Shown here piece after piece: positions 2,083-36,670 of a stretch of DNA of 39,277 nt (position 1 is the first letter of the stretch; every line of letters starts with the position of its first letter). A program made the position numbers and the translations under genes. This DNA is from a virus, in the IMG/VR virus record IMGVR_UViG_3300005617_000019, positions 1 to 39,277 of that record; one strand, written 5' to 3'. The notes under the pieces are model-generated. The model was given only the letters and a program-made list of their open reading frames with translations. It ran no database searches and was not told the DNA's origin.

Positions 2083-3614
2083 TAGGGGATCGGCTCCACT
2101 TTGCCGGTGGCGGGGTTGAAGCGGTGCGTGGGCTTCGGCGGGCCGTCGCTGCTGGTTTTGCCGCCCATGCGGCCTTTTATCGTGGCGATCTGCTCATCGA
2201 GGGCTTTCGTGCGGTTCGCCATATCCGTCTTGAGCAGCCGCATGACGGCGACCGTCTGCTTGAGCGTCGCGTTGGCTGGATTGAAGGCGTCGACTTCGTG
2301 CCGCGCCGAGTCTGACAGCGTGCCCGAGAGATTCGGGTTGCTCGTGATCTTGGCGATCTCATTGACCGCCACTTGTCGCGCGGCGTCGTACTGCGCTTGA
2401 TTCGGACTGCCGAGCAGTTTCCCGCTCGCGGCGCGGATGAAGGTATTCGCCAGTGGCGATCCGGTGTCGACCACCTTCCCGGCCGTGTCGAGGAAGAGAT
2501 CGATATTCTTGGTCGCGGTCTGCTCAAAGGCGCCGATCGCGTCGCGCTGCCCTTGCAGGTGTTTGAGCGACTGACTATCCGCGCCGAAGCCCGCGCGATT
2601 GGCGGCCACGTCCAGCGACGTGCGCATCGGCTCACCGGTACCCGACCCGATCTCGGCCGCGCGATTGATGATGGCTTTGCGCGTCGTCTTGTCGCCCATC
2701 CCCAGTGGGGGGAGTTGGCCCGTCTTGACGTAATTGAGCGCGGCGGCGTCGAGGCCCGCCGGCGTCAGATCGAGCGGCGCCGATTCGGCCTTCGCCCGCG
2801 CGCCGGCCGCTTGCGCGCGCACCATCGCCGCATCGGCTTGGCGCCCGCTGTTTTTCAGCATCCCGGCTTGATAGGCTTCGGTCGACTGCTGCGCCTTCGC
2901 CTGGCGCTCGTTATCCGCGATCCGATCCTTCGCCTGCGAGTCCGCGGTCAGTTTCTTGATCTCGTCCTCGAGCGCCTTCTGCTTGGCCGCAAGCTGATCC
3001 TTCGCGCTCATCGTCCCTTGCCGCAGGGCGTTGGCCTTCGCGGTTGCCTCGGGGCCCGCCTGCGTCGGCAGATCGTCGGTCGGAATCCCCAGCTTCTTGA
3101 GCGCCTGGTGCGCGCTCGCCAGCGCCGCCTGCTGACTCGCGGGATCCGTCGCGTCAGCTACCGGCCCGAGGTGATCGGCGATCGTGTCGTTGATTTTCCG
3201 GTGATAGTCGAGCATCGCCGCGTCGGTCTGCAGCTTCGCGCGCTGCTGTTCGCGCAGCGCCTCCTGCAGCTTGAGTCCGGCTTCGGGGTTCGTCTGCATG
3301 ATCGCGGGGATCGCCGACTCCAGATCGCCACCGCTGTCCTGCAGCGCCGATCGCGTCGCTTGCCGATCGGCGGTCTCGCGACTCGCTTTGTCGACCTCGA
3401 GCCCGAGCTGCTGCGTCCGCAACCCCATCTCCTGCTGCTGGAGTTGCTGCTGCTGCTGGAGGTGGTGCGCCTGTTGGATCTGCGCGGGGATCTGTCCGAG
3501 GCTCGCGAGCGCCCCGCCCCAGATCTGCCCGCGCTGTTCCGCCGCACGCGCCGCACTCTGGCCCTGCTGTTCGATCAGGCGCGTGATCTGCTCCGTGTAT
3601 TGCGCTTGCGACAT
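2082..3614 (-). CDS. coiled-coil ejection protein candidate (gp20/gp16 position)
   Basis: 510 aa, highly helical. Residues about 40-75 are Gln-rich (HHLQQQQQLQQQE), and heptad-like patterns with many Ala, Gln and Lys extend to about residue 270. A second helical part includes LKHLQGQRDAIGAFEQTA and RLLKTDMANRTKALDEQI. The pattern near residue 400-450 (QAQYDAARQVAVNEIAKI ... LSDSARHEVDAFNP) resembles the C-terminal region of long internal virion proteins of other podoviruses. It is coupled to both neighbours (the gene before ends one base upstream at 3615; the next starts in its stop codon). Assignment rests on composition and gene order; sequence similarity to P22 gp20 or gp16 is not obvious. 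Confidence 0.6.
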   Translation of the reverse strand: MSQAQYTEQITRLIEQQGQSAARAAEQRGQIWGGALASLGQIPAQIQQAHHLQQQQQLQQQEMGLRTQQLGLEVDKASRETADRQATRSALQDSGGDLESAIPAIMQTNPEAGLKLQEALREQQRAKLQTDAAMLDYHRKINDTIADHLGPVADATDPASQQAALASAHQALKKLGIPTDDLPTQAGPEATAKANALRQGTMSAKDQLAAKQKALEDEIKKLTADSQAKDRIADNERQAKAQQSTEAYQAGMLKNSGRQADAAMVRAQAAGARAKAESAPLDLTPAGLDAAALNYVKTGQLPPLGMGDKTTRKAIINRAAEIGSGTGEPMRTSLDVAANRAGFGADSQSLKHLQGQRDAIGAFEQTATKNIDLFLDTAGKVVDTGSPLANTFIRAASGKLLGSPNQAQYDAARQVAVNEIAKITSNPNLSGTLSDSARHEVDAFNPANATLKQTVAVMRLLKTDMANRTKALDEQIATIKGRMGGKTSSDGPPKPTHRFNPATGKVEPIP

Positions 3615-8249: not shown

Positions 8250-8704
8250 GGCGCCACCCACGGAATCAGGATCGGCGCCCCGGCGCCATCGGTGACGATG
8301 AACGGCCCAACGGTGACGGGCACGTACTGGAGCAGCGCGCTCCCACTCCAGCCGATCACGATCCACCAGGCGTTGCTACTCAGGTCGGTCAAGATCGTCG
8401 TGAGCTGGTACTGGGTGCTCAGGACCACGGTCGGCGCGCCGTCGATCGTGTCGCCGGCACAGGCGGTGACGATCACCGGGTTCGCCGTGCCGTCGATTTT
8501 CTTCACGGTCAGGCGTCGCGTCAGGTACGCCTTCCGCACGGTCTGCACCGACGGCACCGTGATCACGACCGCGCCGTCGGTCGCGTCGACGATGAGACAG
8601 TCATCGGCCGCGACGACCACATACGGGGACTGCGCGGCCGTCACCGTGCGGACGGAGGCCGAGGCGTCGACGCCTTGCTTCCGGGCAACAGGCGGGGCCC
8701 TCAT
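8246..8704 (-). CDS. small tail/fibre-associated beta protein
   Basis: 152 aa. The core (YVVVAADDCLIVDATDGAVV, then ITVPSVQTVRKAYLTRRLTV) is a pattern common in phage fibre-associated proteins, where a beta-helix-like domain starts with VTAAYTVLAADDxxIxVD. The last 50 residues (WWIVIGWSGSALLQYVPVTV ... LIPWVAP) are hydrophobic beta. It is coupled by ATGA to the 560-aa protein before it and by GTGA to the fibre after it, so the three are probably made and assembled together. Exact role unknown. Confidence 0.6.
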   Translation of the reverse strand: MRAPPVARKQGVDASASVRTVTAAQSPYVVVAADDCLIVDATDGAVVITVPSVQTVRKAYLTRRLTVKKIDGTANPVIVTACAGDTIDGAPTVVLSTQYQLTTILTDLSSNAWWIVIGWSGSALLQYVPVTVGPFIVTDGAGAPILIPWVAP

Positions 8705-10383
8705 CGGGTCCCCTTCGAGACGTCCACGTAGGCGCTGATCAAACTGCAGTCGACCGGATCGGAGACCACGACTTCAAACACGCGATCGCGCGCCTGCCCC
8801 AGCTGCTGCCAGCGCACGCGCGTCGTGGTCGCGCCCAGGGCGCCCAGCGTCGTCCAGTGCTCGCGGCTCCAGGTCAGGCCGCCGTCGTCGGACCAGCGGA
8901 GCATGATCTGCGGATCGCTCCCTTGGCCCTCGGCCAGCCCCGCCCCGACGGTCGCGAGCAGCTCGAAGCGGTTGTAGATGAGGCGCACGTGATCGACGTT
9001 GAGGTGCGGCGATCGCCGCATGCGGCGGATCGTCACCGTCTGGAGCGGCAGCGGGACGAAGGGCTCCGGCTCGCCCGGCTGAAACGAGGCGATCCCGACC
9101 GCTTCATACGAGCTGCCGCCGTAGGCGCCCGTGTTCACGCCATACGCGTAGGTGCCATCGGCCGGGGCAATCTGGGAGGCGAGGATCACGCCTTCGGCCG
9201 ACGAGCTCGCGGCGCAGTCCAGGGCGACGCGCGTCGTCCAGTCGAGCGGGACCGTGCTGTAGCCCCACAGCGCATCGACGGAGACCGAGCCGCCCCCGAT
9301 CAGCAGTTCGGACGCCTGTGTCGTCGTGATCGCCGCCGTGGTGTAGGGCCGCGTCGCCCCGCTGGCCGTGGCGACCTGGTCGAGCGCGCTGGTGAGCGCC
9401 ACGCCCGAAAACTCCGCGACACTCAGCGCGGACGAGCTCGCGTCGCCGGCCATCGACAAGGTAAACGTGTGGCCCGCGCCGCCCGCGCAGTTCTGCGCGT
9501 AGAAACAGGCGGCGTGCCCGGTGCCGCCGGTATTGTTCGCCCAGGCGACCGCCCAGGTATTCCCCTGGCTGTCGGTGATCGAGGCCCCGGTGAGCGTGAG
9601 CCCTTTGGTCGTGCCGATCGCGACCAGGAGGTGGCCCGAGGTCGTCGTGATCGCCGGCGTGGTGATCGACGCCGGCATGACGACGGAATAGACGCCGGTC
9701 TGCTGGACGTACGCGATCCCGCTGCCTTTGAAGGACGCGATCCCGTAGCTTTCGCTGGTGCTCAGGCTCGAGCCGAACGCATAGGCGTAGGGATAGGCGC
9801 CGATCGCGGTGACCAGGGCATAGGCGAGGATGACCCCGCCGTGGTTGAACCCGTCGGCGCGGTACAGATCCGTGAACCGGCCAATACTGCCCGGCGGTTC
9901 CGCGCCGTGCGAGACCGAGCCCGAGCCGATGAGGAGCTGCCCGGCCGTCACGCCGGCGAGCGATCCCGAGCCGATCGGCGGGATCGCGGTCCCCGGCCCG
10001 GCGTTGCTCGTGTGGGCGGTGGCGTTGAGCGAAAAGATCGGCGCGATGTTGGCGAACTCGGCGACGGTGAGCGCGCAGCCGTCCGGCGCGCCGCTGGGCA
10101 ACGTGAAGGTCACCGTATGCCCGGCCCCGCCCTGGATGTTCTCGGCGTAGTAGAGCCCACCACTGCCGAAGGTGCCGTGGCTGTTTCCGTCGAGCCAGGC
10201 AAGCTGCCAGGTGTTGCCGTAGTTGTCGCTCACCGGCGATCCGAAGAGCGCGACCGCGGACTTGCGCGCCGCCATCGCACACAGCCACTGCCCCGGCGTG
10301 GTCGTCATCGCCGGCGTCGTGACGCCCGCGACGCCGTACGCTTGGGCGCTCTGCGCCTGCACGAAGGTGGGCGTGAGACTCAC
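8701..10383 (-). CDS. duplicated decoration-type protein fused to the gp10 C-terminal domain
   Basis: 560 aa with a GTG start that makes a GTGA overlap with the gp10-like gene. Residues 10-222 and 223-435 are two copies of one module: both have TTPAxTTT, an SDxxGNTW strand, GGAGHT, LxVAEF, ELLIGxGSVS and a closing SYxxxGIASF. Residues about 448-560 are different: IRRMRRSPHLNVDHVRLIYN, an Asp-box SDDGGLTW at 498-505, then TRVRWQQLGQARDRVFEVVV and SDPVDCSLISAYV. This end matches the C-terminal domain of P22 gp10 (RVLWKRVGRIRKN ... SPVTLSGAQIRV, from memory) and of related uninterrupted gp10 proteins. So the C terminus of gp10 appears to be carried by this polypeptide. The duplicated module is presumably surface-exposed. 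Confidence 0.75.
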   Translation of the reverse strand: MSLTPTFVQAQSAQAYGVAGVTTPAMTTTPGQWLCAMAARKSAVALFGSPVSDNYGNTWQLAWLDGNSHGTFGSGGLYYAENIQGGAGHTVTFTLPSGAPDGCALTVAEFANIAPIFSLNATAHTSNAGPGTAIPPIGSGSLAGVTAGQLLIGSGSVSHGAEPPGSIGRFTDLYRADGFNHGGVILAYALVTAIGAYPYAYAFGSSLSTSESYGIASFKGSGIAYVQQTGVYSVVMPASITTPAITTTSGHLLVAIGTTKGLTLTGASITDSQGNTWAVAWANNTGGTGHAACFYAQNCAGGAGHTFTLSMAGDASSSALSVAEFSGVALTSALDQVATASGATRPYTTAAITTTQASELLIGGGSVSVDALWGYSTVPLDWTTRVALDCAASSSAEGVILASQIAPADGTYAYGVNTGAYGGSSYEAVGIASFQPGEPEPFVPLPLQTVTIRRMRRSPHLNVDHVRLIYNRFELLATVGAGLAEGQGSDPQIMLRWSDDGGLTWSREHWTTLGALGATTTRVRWQQLGQARDRVFEVVVSDPVDCSLISAYVDVSKGTR

Positions 10384-11519
10384 GCGGGCACCTCGTCGGC
10401 GTACAGGTCACTGCGCATCTCATAGATCAGGCCGGTCGATCGCGCCCCGACCAGGTGCTTGGTGAAGGCGAAGGCGTGACAGCGGCCGACGTCCAAGGTG
10501 TAGCGCAGCGCCAGGTCGTCCCACAGCGCCCGCTCGTGCCAGAGGTCGGTCGAGACGTCATACACCCAGGTGACGTGATCGCCCGTCGCCGGTCCGGTCG
10601 GAAACACCAGGACGTAGAACGGATGGCCCTGATCCTGATAGGCCCAGCCGATCGCGTTGGTCAACGCGCCGTAAGTCGCCCAGATCGCTTCGATCGCGTG
10701 CGTGCTGATCCGCTTGGGACTGGCGCCGTCGAGCCGATAGACCACGCCGCCGCCGTGTTGATTCGCGCCGAGCCAGCAGACCGCGTTGTCGATCTGACAG
10801 GCCGAGTAGGGCGCGAGAATCCCCTGCTCGAGAAACCCGCCCTGGTTCGGTTGAAAAGGGAAATTCGCGTAGCCCGAGTTGTACCAGACCTCGGTCGTCA
10901 GTCCGCCGAAGAGGAACACCTGCCGGTGATCGACCAGCAGCGCCACGATGCGATTGCTGGATTCGGAGACTTGCGCGACGTCGAGCGCCGCCCACAGTTG
11001 GCCGTCTTCGAGCGTGGAGATGTAGAACTTGCCCGAGTGCGCCTCGAGCACGAGAAAGTAGCCGTCGCAAAACGCGCCCATCACTGCGATCGCGGGAAAG
11101 GCGGTGAGCGTCGGATCGATCGGATCGAAAAAGTTGGTGGTGAGATTGAAGATGTAGCCGCTGCCGCCCGAGACGACGAACACCTGCTGCCCGCCGTCGC
11201 CGTTGCTACTGAGCGTCGCCGGCGCGGGACTGTTGACGACCGTCCCCCACTGGCGCGATCCGCCGTTACTCAGGACTTCGAAGAAGTTGGCGCCGGCGAC
11301 GACGAACAGCCGGCCGTTGAGCGCCAGCATCCCGCGGACGGGGCTGTCGCGCAGTTCGGTAAAGACGCGATGGCCCGGCCGCGGCCGGTAATAGACGGCA
11401 CTCTGCCCGCTCGCGTGCCCGTCGACCCGTTCGGGGTACCAGTTCACGCAGCGTTCCGCATCGGCGATCGGACTCGCCGCGGTGTAGCTCGGGCCGACGA
11501 AGCTGGCAAAGACCCCCAT
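10380..11519 (-). CDS. gp10-like packaged-DNA stabilisation protein, propeller part only
   Basis: 379 aa. The N terminus (FVGPSYTAASPIADAERCVN, WYPERV) is the classical start of the Phage_stabilise (P22 gp10) family. Blade-like repeats follow: MLALNGRLFVVAG, QQVFVVSGGSGYIFNLT, GYFLVLEAHSGKFYISTLED, VFLFGGLTTEVWYNSG and AVCWLGANQHGGGVVYRLDG followed by KRISTHAIEAIW, matching the P22 gp10 stretch ending in ASIEKIL. In P22, gp10 binds gp4 and plugs the portal channel. It is shorter than P22 gp10 (472 aa): the protein stops after GLIYEMRSDLYADEVPA, where family members normally continue into a C-terminal domain. That domain is found at the end of the next gene. Confidence 0.85.
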   Translation of the reverse strand: MGVFASFVGPSYTAASPIADAERCVNWYPERVDGHASGQSAVYYRPRPGHRVFTELRDSPVRGMLALNGRLFVVAGANFFEVLSNGGSRQWGTVVNSPAPATLSSNGDGGQQVFVVSGGSGYIFNLTTNFFDPIDPTLTAFPAIAVMGAFCDGYFLVLEAHSGKFYISTLEDGQLWAALDVAQVSESSNRIVALLVDHRQVFLFGGLTTEVWYNSGYANFPFQPNQGGFLEQGILAPYSACQIDNAVCWLGANQHGGGVVYRLDGASPKRISTHAIEAIWATYGALTNAIGWAYQDQGHPFYVLVFPTGPATGDHVTWVYDVSTDLWHERALWDDLALRYTLDVGRCHAFAFTKHLVGARSTGLIYEMRSDLYADEVPA

Positions 11520-16146: not shown

Positions 16147-17187
16147 TTACCATCGGCCCCCGCCTTTCGCGGCGTCGATCTTGTTCATGGCGCGGATGTA
16201 CTCCGGGCCAAACTCCAGATCGTCCACCGGGACAGGGGTCGCACTGGCCGTACCGCCGACTCGATTAATCGGAGGCTTGGCGCTGGATGGTCGGACCGCA
16301 GGCGCTGAATCGAGTGCTGGTTGGACAGCACGCGCGGTCGTTTCGAGCAAACGCCGCATCACGCGAACAGCGGCGGGCGAGGCGTCGACGTCGGCCGACT
16401 CCTGCACGAGCTGACGCGCTTCCTGGGGATGCGTACCCAGGTAGCGCATGAGGGCCGGGCCCTCGGGTGAGTCGAGTATCGCCTGTTCCATGACGGCGGG
16501 GATCGGGAGGCCGCCCGGCCGGTTGTGCACGCCGACGGCCGCCAGCGCCGCGTCCCAGGTCGGGAGCGCCGCCGCGTAGTCGGGATCCGTGGCGATGGTT
16601 TGCTGCAGACGTTCGGTGTGCGCGGAGACGCGCGATTCGGTGCGTTGCGCCTGCTCGCGTTGGGCCGTCAGACTCGCGAAGCGGGCATCGGTGCGCGCGT
16701 CCGTGTAGTCCTCGTACGTCTGGTCGGGATGGGCTTCCGCCCACGCGCCAAAGTCAGGGAAGGCTGGACGCGCCGGGACCGTCGGGCGTGTAACTGGCGC
16801 TGTGGGCGGCTTCCCGCCTTCGAGCGCGGCGAGGCGCTGCCGCAACTGTTGGGCTTCTTCGCGGGCCTGGCGCGCCTCGTCCTTCGCGATCGCCTCTTTC
16901 GCCGTGGCTTGCGCGACGCGAGCGGCCGGGTCGGTGCGGGGTTTCTTGCCGTCCTTCGCCGGTTCCGCCGGCGCGAACTTCCCCGCCTCATCGCGCGCCC
17001 GGGTATCAATGGATACCGGCGTGTCGGGGCTGTCGGGGGGCGTGTCGGGGCTGTCGGGGGGGGCTGGCGTCTCGACGGTCGCGGCGCGATCAGAATCAGA
17101 CGCCCACGGGTCGACCACCGGCGCCGCGGCGGGATCCGCGGCAGGTTCAGGCGTCAGATCGGGCGACAGGTCATCAGCCAGAACCAT
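16147..17187 (-). CDS. scaffolding protein
   Basis: 346 aa, acidic and helical. The first 70 residues are Asp/Pro/Ala-rich with a tandem PPDSPDTP repeat. Then DEAGKFAPAEPAKDGKKP is the typical start of phage scaffolds, followed by a coiled coil (ARVAQATAKEAIAKDEARQA, REEAQQLRQRLAALEGG). A Trp-containing middle (FPDFGAWAEAHPDQTYEDYT) and helices follow. The C-terminal end (DDLEFGPEYIRAMNKIDA) is a short amphipathic helix, which in P22 gp8 binds coat protein. It sits immediately before the coat gene. Its length is close to P22 gp8 (303 aa). Confidence 0.82.
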   Translation of the reverse strand: MVLADDLSPDLTPEPAADPAAAPVVDPWASDSDRAATVETPAPPDSPDTPPDSPDTPVSIDTRARDEAGKFAPAEPAKDGKKPRTDPAARVAQATAKEAIAKDEARQAREEAQQLRQRLAALEGGKPPTAPVTRPTVPARPAFPDFGAWAEAHPDQTYEDYTDARTDARFASLTAQREQAQRTESRVSAHTERLQQTIATDPDYAAALPTWDAALAAVGVHNRPGGLPIPAVMEQAILDSPEGPALMRYLGTHPQEARQLVQESADVDASPAAVRVMRRLLETTARAVQPALDSAPAVRPSSAKPPINRVGGTASATPVPVDDLEFGPEYIRAMNKIDAAKGGGRW

Positions 17188-23247: not shown

Positions 23248-23613
23248 ATGCGGAAGCGCATGTATCCCGCTCAGGTGTCGTCCGTCCCGCTCAGCGTGCT
23301 CTCGCGCCTGTTGGAAGTGGCGCATGTGGCGCATCGCTTGAGCTGTTCGGAGCGGCACGTCCGACGGTTGCTGCGCGACCAGAAGTTGCCCGCGGTCTAC
23401 CTGGATGGGATGTGGCGGGTAGAGCCCGACGACCTGCAGGCGTACATTGAGTCCCATCGGTGGGGCAACCAACAAGCGACGACGACGCAAGAGCCGGACG
23501 ACGCCGACGACCGACGGACGACGACGACGGACGACGACGCTCATACGCGAACTCGACAGGCATTGCCGCCTCAGGTACCGCGTAAACCTCGCACGGGGAG
23601 GCTCGCCGGCTGA
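23248..23613 (+). CDS. excisionase-like HTH DNA-binding protein
   Basis: 121 aa from ATG 23248 (GGGAGGG seven bases upstream). Residues about 15-75 are an HTH_17/MerR-like winged helix: LSRLLEVAHVAHRLSCSERH, VRRLLRDQKLPAVYLDGMWR, VEPDDLQAYI. This is the usual single-domain excisionase/regulator fold. The C-terminal 45 residues are low-complexity (Asp/Thr/Arg: RRTTTTDDDAHTRTRQ) and are encoded inside element C, so the tail may be a by-product of that element. The TGA overlaps the ATG of the RNA ligase by one base (TGATG). It is probably the operon's own regulator. Confidence 0.75.
   Translation: MRKRMYPAQVSSVPLSVLSRLLEVAHVAHRLSCSERHVRRLLRDQKLPAVYLDGMWRVEPDDLQAYIESHRWGNQQATTTQEPDDADDRRTTTTDDDAHTRTRQALPPQVPRKPRTGRLAG
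23515..23612 (+). promoter_or_regulatory. GAC-tract/double-CGCG element C, upstream of a start codon
   Basis: Plus strand: GGACGACGACGACGGACGAC, GACGCTCATACGCGAACTCG, then TCAGGTACCGCGTAAACC, GGGGAGG and the ATG at 23613. The CGCG motifs are 33 bp apart and the distal one ends 30 nt before the ATG. It lies wholly within the 3' end of the HTH gene. It shares CTCATACGCGAA with elements E and F and CAGGTACCGCG with A and B, linking the two subfamilies. Confidence 0.6.
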
Positions 23614-24272
23614 TGCAGAAAATCCCGACGCTGTTCGTGCGTGACGACACGAAGAACGGCCGCCCGGTGACCGATCAGGTCGCGCCCGGCTGCCAATGGG
23701 TGCTCGACGGCGAAGGCTGGGCCACGGTGAAGTACGACGGGACCAACGTCAAGATCGACGGCGGGAACCTCTTCAAGCGCCAGAAGCCGAAAGACCGCGA
23801 CTACGACGACGCGGCCTATGTGCCGTGCGACCGCGCGAACCCGGCGGATCGGTGGGCGTTCGAAGGACTCGACGCGGCCGGGACGGATCCGCTCGCCGAT
23901 GGGATCTACGAACTCGTCGGCCCGAAGGTGCAGGGGAACCCGTACCACCTGGACGGGCATCGCTTGATCCGGGTCGTCCCACACGGCAGCGACTTGGTGA
24001 TCCGAGAAGTGCCGCACGAACCGCGCACGTTCGCCCAGTTGCGGGCCTTTCTCACGATGTCACGCATCGAAGGGATCGTCTTTCACCATCCCGACGGCCG
24101 CATGGCGAAGATCAAGCGGCGTGACTATGGCCTGCCGTGGCCGGTGTCGACGGTCGGCGAGCCTGCACAGACGCTCGGCGCGGTAGATCCCCATGCCTGT
24201 AGCACGGGTCCAGTGTCCACGCGCGGGAAAACTTCGTCGTCGTCTTTGTCTTCGTCGGAGGGTGTTTCATGA
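23613..24272 (+). CDS. RNA ligase, nucleotidyltransferase superfamily
   Basis: 219 aa. The AMP-accepting lysine is K40 in motif I (VKYDGTN, K-x-D-G-T-N), as in the single-domain RNA ligase families such as DUF5565. Other motifs follow: YELVGPKVQGNPY (residues 98-110, motif III region), IEGIVFHH (151-158, motif IV) and MAKIKRRDYGLPW (163-175, motif V). The enzyme seals RNA with ATP. Phage RNA ligases commonly repair tRNA cut by host anticodon nucleases; whether this one does so is inference. The last 35 residues are low-complexity (Ser-rich) and coincide with element G. It is coupled to the small genes that follow. Confidence 0.82.
   Translation: MQKIPTLFVRDDTKNGRPVTDQVAPGCQWVLDGEGWATVKYDGTNVKIDGGNLFKRQKPKDRDYDDAAYVPCDRANPADRWAFEGLDAAGTDPLADGIYELVGPKVQGNPYHLDGHRLIRVVPHGSDLVIREVPHEPRTFAQLRAFLTMSRIEGIVFHHPDGRMAKIKRRDYGLPWPVSTVGEPAQTLGAVDPHACSTGPVSTRGKTSSSSLSSSEGVS
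24176..24258 (-). repeat. GAC-tract/double-CGCG element G, at the 3' end of a gene (reverse orientation)
   Basis: Minus strand: GACGACGACGAAGTTTTCCC, GCGCGTGGACACTGGACCCG, then GGCATGGGGATCTACCGCG. The CGCG motifs are 41-43 bp apart. It closely matches element H (32368-32442), which has the same CCCGCGCG, TGGGGATCTACCGCG and overall spacing. It overlaps the 3' end of the RNA-ligase gene and points against it. Function unknown. Confidence 0.55.
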
Positions 24273-27074: not shown

Positions 27075-27178
27075 TCGAAATAGCCACCAAATCCGGCGCA
27101 CGTCGACAGGTATAAGCCGGCGCACAGCACCCAGAACAGCCCGATCGCGAGCGCGCGGATCAGGTGCGCGTGTTTCAC
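27071..27178 (-). CDS. 35-aa single-helix membrane peptide
   Basis: 35 aa starting at a GTG at 27178, with GTGA overlap to the double-HTH gene and ATGA overlap to the next. The sequence KHAHLIRALAIGLFWVLCAG then LYLSTCAGFGGYFE has one membrane helix (residues about 7-26). The coupling at both ends supports translation. Role unknown; small one-helix proteins often modulate host membrane enzymes. Confidence 0.6.
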   Translation of the reverse strand: MKHAHLIRALAIGLFWVLCAGLYLSTCAGFGGYFE

Positions 27179-27723
27179 AGCGCCTCCAGATCGACCCGCC
27201 GAATCTTCCACCCGCGATCTTTCACCGCCGGCAGCCGTCCCTCGTGAATCGCCCGGACGAGGAACGTGCGGGACCACCCGGAAGCGTCCACCGCCTCCGA
27301 CAGCGTGAGGATCGGCCGTGTCGGACCTGTCGGGGGATCTGTCGGACCTGTCGGACCGATCGGGGCGCTGCCGACCAGCGCGGCGCGGATGCCTTGGAGG
27401 ATCTCGACGAGCCCCGCAATGTCGACCGGCGGCCGCTGGGTCAGCCCGTGGCCGTTGCCCGAGTCGGGGATCGTCGCCAGATAGGGCGTGCGGACCTCCA
27501 CGGACCCGCCCAACGCGAGATCGCGGACCTGCGAGGCCCGATACAGGGTCGGGAAGCCCGGCCGCGCCTTGGCCTCGAGTTTCCCGGCGCGGGCGCGCCG
27601 TTCGATTGTGCGTTCGTCGACGCCGAGCATCTTCGCCGCTTCAGCTTTGGTGATCCACGCCGACGCCCCGACAGGGCCGACGACAGTGTCGTCGGGGGTT
27701 CCACGGGACACGATCGGCGGCAT
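27175..27723 (-). CDS. double helix-turn-helix regulator
   Basis: 182 aa with two excisionase/MerR-type HTH domains. The first (residues about 20-75) is AWITKAEAAKMLGVDERTIE, RRARAGKLEAKARPGFPTLY, RASQVRDLA. The second (about 137-180) is LTLSEAVDASGWSRTFLVRA, IHEGRLPAVKDRGWKIRRVD. Between them is a Pro/Gly-rich linker (GPTGPTDPPTGPTRP) built from a tandem DNA repeat. One HTH of this kind is the usual length; two on one chain suggest binding to two adjoining sites or DNA bridging. It sits downstream of the replication initiator. Confidence 0.75.
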   Translation of the reverse strand: MPPIVSRGTPDDTVVGPVGASAWITKAEAAKMLGVDERTIERRARAGKLEAKARPGFPTLYRASQVRDLALGGSVEVRTPYLATIPDSGNGHGLTQRPPVDIAGLVEILQGIRAALVGSAPIGPTGPTDPPTGPTRPILTLSEAVDASGWSRTFLVRAIHEGRLPAVKDRGWKIRRVDLEAL

Positions 27724-27989
27724 TAGTGGCGCCTCACAAAAAACTTTTCCGCGCGCACGAGCAGCGCGTGTTGTGTCGGGTCAAGCGCCGCTTTGTCGGC
27801 GGCCGTCATGCACCGCAGGCCGAGACCGTCAGTGAACAGCAGCCAGGCGCCGCAGTACACGCACAGCGTCGTATCACCGGACGCAGGCGGGCGTGACGGG
27901 CGCGTGTCGGCCTCGCCGTGCGCGTCGATCGTGTCGCCGCAAGTGGGACACGTCAGCGCCGGCATCCGCCAAATGACAGGATCGGTCAT
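27723..27989 (-). CDS. 88-aa zinc-ribbon protein
   Basis: 88 aa: MTDPVIWRMPALTCPTCGDT with C-P-T-C, then CVYCGAWLLF with C-V-Y-C, separated by about 35 residues, the classic zinc ribbon. The C terminus (RCMTAADKAALDPTQHALLV) is helical. It is coupled to the replication initiator before it (ATGA) and to the double-HTH gene after it (TAATG). Such small ribbons commonly bind nucleic acid or RNA polymerase. Function not known. Confidence 0.7.
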   Translation of the reverse strand: MTDPVIWRMPALTCPTCGDTIDAHGEADTRPSRPPASGDTTLCVYCGAWLLFTDGLGLRCMTAADKAALDPTQHALLVRAEKFFVRRH

Positions 27990-28660
27990 CCGGTTTTCCT
28001 CTCCAGGCCGAGCCCCTTGCGCAGCGCGTCGGCGAGCTGGCCCCACTGCGGCGTCGGCCGCTCCGGGCGTTCGAGCGGCGCGTTGATGTCCGCGAGCAAG
28101 CCAAGCGTTTGTTGATGCAACGGCGCGGCGTCCGGCGGTCGACTTTCGCCTTCGTCTCTTTCTGAGTTTTCCACAGGGGAAGACAGCGGCGCGCGCCGCG
28201 CGACGCTCTTTGGATCTAATACGGGATCTAATACGGGATGGTCTGCCACTTTGGCAGTCAGATCGGACAAAGTGGCAGTCAGATCGGACAAAGTGGCAGT
28301 CAGATCGGATCCGGTTTGAATGCCAAAGTGGCAGTCAGATTTGTGATCAGGCACCACGACTTTCGCCATCGTCGCCGAGGTCGCCAGCCGATCCAGCACG
28401 ATCCGATAGACGGTCGGCCAGCGATGGGTGTGCGCGCCGACAATCCACCCGTCCGCCTCGAGCCGACGCAAGCAGCGGGCGATGGTCCGCAAGGATAAAT
28501 CCGGGATGCGACTTTGGAGCTTCTCAATACTCGGGCAGGCGTTCGTTCCCGTCTCGTAGTGCGCGAAGGACGCGAGCGCCAGGAGCACGCGACTATCCGA
28601 CGACGTGTGAAAACCCGTCGTCAGGGCGATCCGTTCCGCGATGGAGAGGCGGTAACTCAT
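27986..28660 (-). CDS. probable replication initiator (winged-helix, iterons inside the gene)
   Basis: 224 aa from ATG 28660. Residues about 10-95 are a winged helix-turn-helix (SRVLLALASFAHYETGTNAC, SIEKLQSRIPDLSLRTIARC, LRRLEADGWIVGAHTHRWPT), the N-terminal type of replication-organiser proteins. Residues 108-137 are three or four repeats of SDLTATL, and 141-150 is a VLDP repeat; both arise from tandem DNA repeats (28204-28345) that look like initiator-binding iterons, as in lambda O. The rest is Pro-rich with a small C-terminal helix (WGQLADALRKGLGLERK). No helicase or DnaC gene accompanies it, so host helicase loading is presumably recruited directly. Function inferred. Confidence 0.65.
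   Translation of the reverse strand: MSYRLSIAERIALTTGFHTSSDSRVLLALASFAHYETGTNACPSIEKLQSRIPDLSLRTIARCLRRLEADGWIVGAHTHRWPTVYRIVLDRLATSATMAKVVVPDHKSDCHFGIQTGSDLTATLSDLTATLSDLTAKVADHPVLDPVLDPKSVARRAPLSSPVENSERDEGESRPPDAAPLHQQTLGLLADINAPLERPERPTPQWGQLADALRKGLGLERKTG
28204..28345 (-). repeat. iteron-like repeats, candidate replication origin
   Basis: Three 21-bp tandem copies with the core TGGCAGTCAGATCGG at 28252, 28273 and 28294 and a fourth, partly conserved, at 28329 (TGGCAGTCAGAT). The first and fourth are flanked by inverted TGCCA/TGGCA (CTGCCA-CTT-TGGCAG at 28243-28257; TGCCA-AAG-TGGCA at 28321-28333). Two copies of GGATCTAATACG (12 bp) lie just left, at about 28212-28235, and are the AT-richer part. 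This arrangement (iterons plus an AT-richer repeat inside an initiator gene) is typical of theta origins. Confidence 0.6.
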
Positions 28661-28716: not shown

Positions 28717-28767
28717 ATTTGATCGCATCTCGCACCTCGGGTTCTCACGCTCGGCTCCCATCTGGAC

Positions 28768-30276: not shown

Positions 30277-30431
30277 GGGGTGTCCTCCTCGTCGTCGACA
30301 TAGCCGATCCAGACTTCGCCGTGCTCGTAGCAGATCGCGTCCTCGTCGACGCCGTTGACGACCGCCAGACCGGCGGCCGGGGCCTGCGTGCGTAACTCTT
30401 CAAGCGCGTCGATCAACTCATCGAGCGTCAT
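30273..30431 (-). CDS. 52-aa acidic protein downstream of the recombinase
   Basis: 52 aa: MTLDELIDALEELRTQAPAA then GLAVVNGVDEDAICYEHGEV and WIGYVDDEEDTP. Strongly acidic, helix followed by beta, about pI 3.5 by composition. It begins with ATGA overlap to the recombinase stop and ends with ATGA overlap to the next gene, so its frame is fixed at both ends. Small acidic proteins may act as modulators of DNA-binding partners; that is inference. Confidence 0.65.
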   Translation of the reverse strand: MTLDELIDALEELRTQAPAAGLAVVNGVDEDAICYEHGEVWIGYVDDEEDTP

Positions 30432-31135
30432 ACACTCGCCTTCAAAGTCCGCGCAACGTACTCAAACCGCCACGGTGTGCCGCGTCGCGTCGTCCAGCCG
30501 TGCCGGTTCAAATCCTCCGCAATCCGTCGCACGGTATAGCCATGCGCGTGCAGTTCGAGAATCCGCGCGATCAACCGTTGCTCCACCGGCGCCGGCTCCA
30601 GGTGCACACCATCGGCCGCGAGCTGCGAGCCGTAGGGCACGTTGCCGATCCGTTCCCGCCGGCCGCGCTTCACCGCCAACGCGCCCGTCGTCCGCGCTTT
30701 GATCAGCAGCCGTTCGTATTGCGCGAACCCGTCGATAATCCACCGCAGCAGCACACTCGCCGGGTCGTTGTCGGTGCCGCCTTCGCCGGCCGCCGACACG
30801 ATCTGCGCGCCGCGCTTGCTCACCGACCGCTCGACAATGGCGACCTCAAGCCCATCGCGACCCAGCCGATCCCGTTTCGCGACCACGAGCACGCAGCCGC
30901 GCCGCAGCGCCCCGACCGCCTCGACCAGCACCGGCCGATCGGCCATCGCCAGCGCGCCGGACACGCCCGCGTCCTCGTAGATGGCGCGCACGTCGAGCCC
31001 TAACCGGGCCGCCGTCTCCGCGATGCTCGCGCGTTGTGCCTCCAGGCCCAACCCGGAGTCCGCCTGCTTCTCCGTGGACACCCGCACGTAGCCGATAGCG
31101 TACGGCCGGTTTGTGACGTGACCCAACGGTGACAT
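30428..31135 (-). CDS. serine recombinase (resolvase/integrase family)
   Basis: 235 aa from ATG 31135. The resolvase domain is complete: AIGYVRVSTEKQ with the nucleophile S20, AQRASIAETAARLGLDVRAI, YEDAGVSGALAMADRPVLVE, VAKRDRLGRD, RWIIDGFAQYERLLIKART. A short C-terminal part follows (VEQRLIARILELHAHGYTVR, RIAEDLNRHGWTTRRGTPWR), the Recombinase HTH. It lacks the long zinc and coiled-coil region of large serine integrases, so it is either a compact integrase or a resolvase. An upstream in-frame extension to 31339 is Ser/Pro-rich and probably not translated. It probably controls integration or dimer resolution. Confidence 0.85.
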   Translation of the reverse strand: MSPLGHVTNRPYAIGYVRVSTEKQADSGLGLEAQRASIAETAARLGLDVRAIYEDAGVSGALAMADRPVLVEAVGALRRGCVLVVAKRDRLGRDGLEVAIVERSVSKRGAQIVSAAGEGGTDNDPASVLLRWIIDGFAQYERLLIKARTTGALAVKRGRRERIGNVPYGSQLAADGVHLEPAPVEQRLIARILELHAHGYTVRRIAEDLNRHGWTTRRGTPWRFEYVARTLKASV

Positions 31136-31621
31136 CACAGGCGGGCGAAGGTCGGCGGCCCTAGGGCTTGTGGTCGCGCACTTTCGCCCCAACGGGACGC
31201 CCGACGGTATCGCCGCGTACCCTCCAGAGAGCCCGGCCGGACTTTCGCTTGGTGAGCTGGACGGTGTGTTAGGGATCGGACTGATCGCCCGGTCGACCTG
31301 TGGTAAATCTTTTTGGTGCATGGCGGGACAGCCCTTCACTGTCCATCAAGTCATGCCGCGCTCGTCCCCGCCGCGTGGTCTTACTCCCGCGCGGCGGGCT
31401 CCCTCCGACGACGCCTCAGAGGGGCCCCTCCCGCATCTGCCGCACACCCCGACGCCGGTACAGGCTGTGCTCTGCCTCTGTCGAGAGGCCGTGTAAGTTG
31501 TTGCAGGTGAGGGGATCGACGCGGCGGGCGGTGACTGTTGTCTGCCAAAGTTGACGAATCGTCAACCGTCGGTAGGCGGTAGAGTGTATGTTATGTAAAC
31601 CTGTCGACATGGCCGTAGACC
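31136..31621. promoter_or_regulatory. 485-base non-coding region between recombinase and regulator (candidate att/control region)
   Basis: No convincing gene: the frames here are short and of unusual composition. Visible sites: the palindrome GAGGGGCCCCTC at 31419-31430, the palindrome GTTGACGAATCGTCAAC at 31550-31566, and an AT-rich patch at 31585-31600 (TGTATGTTATGTAAAC). Location directly upstream of the serine recombinase gene is where serine-integrase attP sites usually lie. The operator-like palindrome is 250 nt from the recombinase in the direction of the regulator. Neither site can be assigned without data. Confidence 0.45.
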
Positions 31622-36218: not shown

Positions 36219-36221
36219 CCC

Positions 36222-36250
36222 TTGCAGTGTATACGGGAATCCCGTATACT
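36222..36250 (+). promoter_or_regulatory. hicA promoter with palindromic operator
   Basis: Plus strand: TTGCAG (36222-36227), 17-bp spacer, TATACT (36245-36250). The 21-bp palindrome at 36229-36249 fills the spacer and -10, so a bound regulator would shut it off. The ATG of hicA (36258) lies seven bases after the -10, as for a leaderless mRNA. Confidence 0.7.
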
Positions 36251-36257
36251 CTCTGTA

Positions 36258-36443
36258 ATGAAGGTGCGCGACATTCTGAAGCGGCTGGCCGAGGACGGTT
36301 GGGTCTTGAAGACGACCGCCGGCAGCCATCGCCAGCTCACGCACTCGACGAAACCCGGCAAGGTGACGGTCAGCGGCAAGCCGGGTGATGACATTCAGGG
36401 ATGGCTGCTCGCGAGCATCTGGAAACAGGCAGGACTGAAATGA
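36258..36443 (+). CDS. hicA: HicA-type mRNA interferase toxin
   Basis: 61 aa, the normal length of HicA. The sequence KVRDILKRLAEDGWVLKTTA, GSHRQLTHSTKPGKVTVSGK, SIWKQAGLK contains the family's signature, including the catalytic H24 in GSHRQ and the basic beta-sheet face. HicA is a dsRNA-binding-fold ribonuclease that cuts mRNA. Its usual antitoxin HicB is missing: the next gene does not resemble it. It is transcribed from its own repressible promoter, and its stop overlaps the next gene (ATGA). It may serve in phage exclusion or lysogen maintenance; inferred. Confidence 0.8.
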   Translation: MKVRDILKRLAEDGWVLKTTAGSHRQLTHSTKPGKVTVSGKPGDDIQGWLLASIWKQAGLK

Positions 36444-36670
36444 CGAACAGCACGCACGCGGCGACGGAGGCGGAAGTCCTGCGATTGGTGGGGGCGCTCG
36501 AGGCCGCCGTGCAGGACCTGGCCCGCCTCCGGCAGTTGTGCGCCGAGGTCTACCAGGTGGCCGGCGAGCTCGGGGCCGACGCGCCGGTGCTGGATAACCT
36601 CTGGGCCGCGGCGGACGGGAAGCCGCTGCCCCACGCCTCACTGTTGCCGTACGTGAAGGCCCGCGCATGA
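36440..36670 (+). CDS. 76-aa helical protein after hicA
   Basis: 76 aa, ATGA overlap with hicA: MTNSTHAATEAEVLRLVGAL, EAAVQDLARLRQLCAEVYQV, AGELGADAPVLDNLWAAADG, KPLPHASLLPYVKARA. Helical; a similar pattern of about 70 aa with VLDxLxxAANGxPxPHxxLLPF is known from phages of high-GC hosts, with no function assigned. It lacks the HicB fold (no partial RNase H, no ribbon-helix-helix). It is the best-placed candidate for an unusual antitoxin, but there is no direct evidence. Confidence 0.6.
   Translation: MTNSTHAATEAEVLRLVGALEAAVQDLARLRQLCAEVYQVAGELGADAPVLDNLWAAADGKPLPHASLLPYVKARA

Follow-up and report, generated by a model that had tools for sequence, protein, structure and literature searches.

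A probable lambda-type replication origin within a winged-helix initiator gene of an uncultured phage group

In phage lambda, gene O contains four 18-bp iterons and an adjacent 38-bp AT-rich stretch (PMC3349717), an arrangement that provides the precedent for replication origins located inside a gene (PMC3349717; PMC3985674; PMC7466680). The Stx phages P27 and 933W resemble ori-lambda in having dyad iterons midway along the gene, six in number as compared to four in lambda, with an A+T-rich tract adjacent to them (PMC3349717; PMC7466680; PMC5043065). In-gene DNA repeats directly after the winged helix have also been reported for replication protein O of Pseudomonas phage MD8 (PMC8508860), and similar HTH_36 genes named 'primosomal protein I' have them as well. 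Iteron plasmid origins combine an array of initiator repeats of about 21 bp with an A+T-richer tract, and their iterons bind initiator monomers (PMC5043065).

The 39,277-base virus record that was analyzed here in its entirety, referred to as the window, encodes terminase, portal, major head and connector genes together with a serine recombinase of the phage integrase type (30428-31339; phrog_95, 4.7e-36), and is therefore read as a temperate phage that, to judge from these genes, is podovirus-like in morphology. Within the gene of a predicted winged-helix protein, four sites with the palindromic form CTGCCA-N3-TGGCAG follow one another as palindrome, half-site, half-site and palindrome (Table 1), spaced in coding order by 35, 21 and 21 bp. 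Since relatives keep these DNA sites while the encoded amino acids change, the array is very probably the start of replication, namely a lambda-type intragenic origin of theta replication contained in the gene for its initiator. This reading draws on features of the sequence: the array itself, the retention of its DNA sites by relatives, its location in a linker predicted to be disordered and the kinship of the encoded protein to phage initiators. It is a new example of a layout known from phage lambda, not a new principle.

Table 1. Features of the putative initiator gene and the array within it (window coordinates; sites numbered in coding order)
Feature	Position	Strand	Sequence and basis
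Putative replication initiator gene, winged-helix (HTH_36), O-like	27986..28660	-	ATG start, 224 aa
Winged-helix DNA-binding domain, residues 1-92	28385..28660	-	AlphaFold2 pLDDT mostly >90; Pfam match
Predicted disordered linker, residues 98-193, encoded by array and second element	28082..28369	-	AlphaFold2
C-terminal helix, residues 206-216 (QWGQLADALRKGL stretch)	28013..28045	-	AlphaFold2; candidate helicase or loader contact
Site 1, palindrome with one mismatch	28320..28334		Window strand ATGCCAAAGTGGCAG; coding CTGCCACTTTGGCAT; read DCHFG
Site 2, half-site	28285..28299		Coding CTGCCACTTTGTCCG; read TATL
Site 3, half-site; 15-mer of site 2 repeated 21 bp away	28264..28278		Coding CTGCCACTTTGTCCG
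Site 4, perfect palindrome	28243..28257		Window strand CTGCCACTTTGGCAG; coding CTGCCAAAGTGGCAG; read TAKVA
Two 12-bp repeats, candidate strand-opening or second element	28212..28235		GGATCTAATACG; coding CGTATTAGATCC twice
DnaA-box-like sequence	28167..28175	+	TTTTCCACA; only TTWTNCACA in the window; role uncertain

The array most likely works like ori-lambda, with which it shares a winged-helix-type initiator and the position of the repeats in the linker-encoding part of the gene. The initial annotation had stated that lambda O has the same design, and this agrees with the iterons and AT-rich stretch inside O and with the finding that lambda O passes the shuffle test applied below. However, the iteron sequence of the window is unrelated to that of lambda, two full palindromes flank two half-sites at spacings of 21 and 35 bp, and the A+T richness is weaker. 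Moreover, a P-type gene was sought alongside the initiator gene and not found, and the window is therefore not filed under a strict lambda O/P system. The sites differ from plasmid iterons in being dyads, as in lambda.

The winged-helix, phage-initiator-like identity proposed earlier for the gene product was upheld by a match to Pfam HTH_36 above the cutoff (E=3.1e-6, residues 22-73) and by matches to the PHROG family 'replication initiation O-like' and other initiation families (E=3e-5 to 7e-4). The profile match of the O-like family (PHROG 391, E=3.1e-5) is the only link of the protein to lambda O, and no Rep family was found by Pfam. The gene may alternatively begin at an upstream GTG at 28735. 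Searches with the window protein gave no matches in 50,697 phage records and, by tblastn, none in 72,556 plasmids, and a search of the PDB by sequence with the family profile returned no solved relative. In genome contigs, a first profile detected no relatives of the initiator and a second one two distant partial matches. Comparison of the predicted structure with viral models returned mostly helix-turn-helix phage proteins, some of which are named replication initiator or replisome organizer. The AlphaFold2 confidence falls below a pLDDT of 50 in residues 98-174 and 177-193 of the linker, and C-termini similar to the C-terminal helix of the window protein occur in L002, L014, L300, L008 and L306.

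PHROG scans of the window ORFs, covering the small ORFs in part, recognized no P, DnaB, DnaC, helicase, primase or polymerase. Downstream of the initiator gene lie a zinc-ribbon-like ORF and an excisionase-like protein (27175-27723, minus strand) with two HTH_17/excisionase-like domains, and neither matches P, DnaC or DnaB. Excisionase-type matches are also found downstream of the initiator in two relatives, L306 (4679-5326) and L303 (5278-5997).

The repeats are present where the initial annotation had placed three exact 21-bp copies and a partial one. There are three exact copies of the 16-mer TGGCAGTCAGATCGGA (28252, 28273 and 28294) and one with three mismatches (28329), and at up to three mismatches it matches six times in the whole window compared to 0.42 times expected. 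The 21-bp unit TGGCAGTCAGATCGGACAAAG has two exact copies and a third that is 81% identical, and the longest exact direct repeat is a 37-bp tract of period 21. This tract comprises only about 2.8 copies, so that three exact 21-mers were a slight overcount. The TGCCA/TGGCA inverted repeats that had been noted on both flanks are real and correspond to sites 1 and 4, and the half of the palindrome that sites 2 and 3 keep is, on the coding strand, CTGCCACTTTGTCC. When codons were shuffled among synonymous positions only, leaving the protein unchanged, the 63 pairs of identical 10-mers in the initiator gene were reached in none of 500 trials (mean 1.7, maximum 19). No comparable excess was detected in 12 other window genes, the largest being 15 pairs against a shuffle maximum of 11 (16147-17187). 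Because a recent tandem duplication could also give rise to such an excess, the gene was compared with its relatives.

The two closest relatives, L001 and L014, the latter first found by a scan for the DNA pattern, are 81% and 72% identical, respectively, to the window protein over the first 101 residues. All three genes contain the four-site array, with spacings of 15, 21 and 21 bp in L001 and 35, 21 and 22 bp in L014. The 14-mer CTGCCACTTTGTCC is identical at both inner sites in the three genes, while the four-fold degenerate sites of the N-terminal domain are only 47-58% identical among them. The palindrome of site 4 is the same in L001 and a one-base variant in L014, and the spacer TCCGATCTGA is changed to TCCATCGGTA in L001. 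Translated, the palindrome gives DCHFG and TAKVA at its two sites in the window gene, TAKVA again in L001, and DCQNG in L014. Its translation in different frames indicates that the DNA, not the peptide, is conserved. These observations favor the earlier proposal that the amino-acid repeats are a by-product of DNA function, as in L001 and L014 the core persists in other frames and between altered spacers, while SDLTATL and VLDP do not persist as such. None of 11 relatives retains the amino-acid repeat with the DNA repeat lost, and the reverse case was found. The same DNA pattern scan also matched the winged-helix genes of the distant phages L072 and L105 and, weakly, that of L044.

A similar organization was found in nine further relatives (L002, L008, L300, L302, L303, L305, L306, L307 and L308), each of whose genes exceeds all of its own synonymous shuffles. 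Three to five dyad or half-dyad sites directly follow the winged helix in 12 of 12 genes of the clade. The dyad arms are specific to the lineage (GGCTCA, GGATCA, TGCTCA, GCGTCAC, CCGCCAC, GTGCCAC, GCGCCAC and CCGTCA, with CTGCCA in the window group), and common to them is an inner YCA...TGR, in many cases also a preceding GATYTGA. The C-terminal part of the L308 protein (gene 2379-3500) matches the DnaA N-terminal domain in Pfam above the cutoff (1.4e-7), and the four best PDB matches of its model, including 4tps and 2wp0, are all DnaA domain I. Since the C-terminal domain of L303 (2983-3762) is similar to it (BLASTP 4e-5), L303 probably carries DnaA domain I as well. DnaA domain I contacts DnaB. 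Apart from this shared domain, the clade proteins differ from DnaA in having no AAA+ domain or DnaA domain IV and in a DNA-binding part that is a winged helix, and in the window protein the C-terminus is just a short helix. A separate feature of three relatives is a second open frame overlapping the 3' part of the initiator gene (L001 4145-4444, L002 5446-5808 and L014 842-1150). Its product (PTFAQTVVIIQTMP...) is 50-63% identical among them, and at this place the main frame, too, is rather well conserved (43-57%). The window initiator gene is without this stretch, and no clear copy was found elsewhere in the window.

Next to the array, the two 12-bp repeats described earlier as AT-richer are present in the window. 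They are not kept as a pair in L001 and L014, although in the wider clade a comparable element occupies this place. Positions 28200-28250 are about 52% A+T, as compared to 33% overall, and two other places in the initiator gene reach 55%. In L002, L008, L302, L306 and L307 an ATCCC(C)(T/A)GTA-type tandem (ATCCCCTGTACG type) lies 3' of the array. In L008 the unit encodes IPCT and DPLY, in L302 SPVR and DPLY, and its occurrence in two frames within one gene suggests that this second element, too, acts at the level of DNA. The 12-bp pair of the window has the same position and resembles the tandem (ATCCCGTATTAGATCCCGTATTAGATCC on the coding strand), but the assignment is less certain for the window because L001 has one copy and L014 a divergent version. 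GC skew, named in the initial annotation as a check, has neither an extreme nor a switch at the array. Scans for promoters and terminators gave no match near it, and tRNA and Rfam scans gave none. The DnaA-box-like TTTTCCACA is present close to the iterons in three of the 12 clade genes (window; L002 5306; L302 3327) compared to 0.42 expected, and the observed number was reached in 3 of 500 shuffles. It is absent from the two closest relatives, L001 and L014, and was set aside as evidence for an origin.

It is improbable, although the best placed of the alternatives, that the sites are intragenic operators at which the winged-helix protein or another regulator represses or blocks transcription of its own operon, and that they do not function as an origin. 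Palindromic dyads to which winged-helix dimers bind are a usual form of operator, and the best PDB fold matches of the initiator model are the regulators Fur, PerR, MarR and TubR (generic winged helices, all with E > 1e-3). However, the sites are located over 300 bp into the gene, away from its promoter, and no second copy of the dyad stands upstream of any gene in the window, L001 and L014 contigs, where palindromes with at most one mismatch are confined to the initiator gene. In addition, the sequence relatives of the protein are initiators beside helicase genes, and one of them, L308, carries DnaA domain I. The sites may also serve both as operator and as origin. The presence of TubR, a winged-helix plasmid partition protein, among the fold matches would fit a partition or segregation (centromere-like) or other cis site with a TubR- or ParR-like adaptor. 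This reading is less probable again, considering that no ParA- or TubZ-like gene was found among the window ORFs scanned, that the serine recombinase points to an integrating phage and that replication genes are the neighbors in annotated relatives. Least credible is that the DNA repeats are a by-product of an amino-acid repeat (SDLTATL, VLDP) that is itself useful or neutral, arising for example from a recent tandem duplication. In favor of it, the 21-bp period preserves the frame, and tandem duplication by itself could yield more repeats than synonymous shuffling does. Against it, the window gene and L014 read one DNA site in different frames, the core stayed constant while the L001 spacers changed, silent positions are kept in the core but only about half identical elsewhere, and the array-encoded stretch is predicted to be disordered.

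For the array as a lambda-type origin, we infer a mechanism modelled on lambda O with P and DnaB (PMC3985674; PMC5043065; PMC7466680), in which origin activity would begin with dimers of the window protein binding the dyad sites through the winged helix. The resulting complex would bend the DNA and open the neighboring tract at about 28205-28240, and the C-terminal part of the initiator might bring in the host replicative helicase, either directly or via a host loader. Since the linker encoded by the array is predicted to be disordered, the protein would tolerate whatever the DNA sites spell. For the clade as a whole we suggest, as a tentative and rather doubtful extension, a two-part origin within the initiator gene. 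Fast-changing dyad iterons would match the phage's own recognition helix, and a slower, strand-specific second element (of the ATCCCCTGTACG type, or of an AGAACC type in another clade) would be read by a conserved host factor. The initiator C-terminus, with DnaA domain I in L308 and probably in L303, would bring in DnaB without a dedicated phage loader, the protein being a minimal stand-in for DnaA.

Similar results were obtained for other O-like genes. In a set of 18 such genes from annotated phages, lambda O among them, 15 exceed all 300 synonymous shuffles, and their repeats lie mostly between codons 60 and 150. In a dereplicated, diverse set that likewise includes lambda O, 45 of 54 genes pass the repeat test with 100 shuffles each and 9 fail. 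A held-out set of greater divergence had only 6 passes and 7 failures among its 13 genes, which indicates that the in-gene repeat layout is common but not universal. The gene adjoins a DnaB-like helicase, primase/helicase, replicative helicase or P gene in PseuP_224, VSN-002, SI8, AV001, AB1 and MD8. The reported in-gene repeats of MD8 were confirmed by the synonymous-shuffle test. MD8 differs from the window in its repeat sequence, in its adjoining P gene and in having an AGAACC-type element downstream instead of the ATCCC type.

AGAACC was found in the linker region of 32 of the 54 genes compared to 12.2 expected from synonymous shuffles, and its reverse complement in one gene. Tandems of AGAACC or GAACCRTC, as in L136, L151, EBPR podovirus 2 and Juno112, lie on the coding strand in all three frames and encode EPS, RTV and LNR motifs, and 39 of 40 genes have AGAWCC/GAACCRTC on the 3' side of the repeats. 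The excess of AGAACC was not reproduced in the held-out set (3 of 13 genes, 4.4 expected), where GAACCRTC gave only a hint (3 compared to 0.7 expected, shuffle maximum 4). As, in addition, the surveyed genes are not independent of each other, this motif is a lead for some clades only.

The analysis places a probable origin and its likely recognition site in an uncultured phage group from sequence alone, and repeats in excess of synonymous shuffles, combined with one site read in several frames, provide a general test. The 45 O-like genes that pass offer numerous naturally matched winged helices and iterons from which recognition rules might be derived, while DnaA domain I on L308 suggests a route to helicase recruitment where no loader gene is recognized.

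Outside the initiator region, the adjacent window ORFs 10380-11519 and 8701-10383 (minus strand) match the N-terminal and C-terminal parts, respectively, of the head-closure (Hc3) family phrog_578, so that the connector gene appears to be split in two. An RNA ligase-like gene is located at 23613-24272 (plus strand; phrog_14301, 1.3e-43). A small ORF at 36219-36440 (plus strand) matches a phage toxin family (phrog_353, 7e-15) and looks HicA-like. It is overlapped by the next ORF (36401-36670, plus strand), with which it possibly forms a toxin-antitoxin pair.
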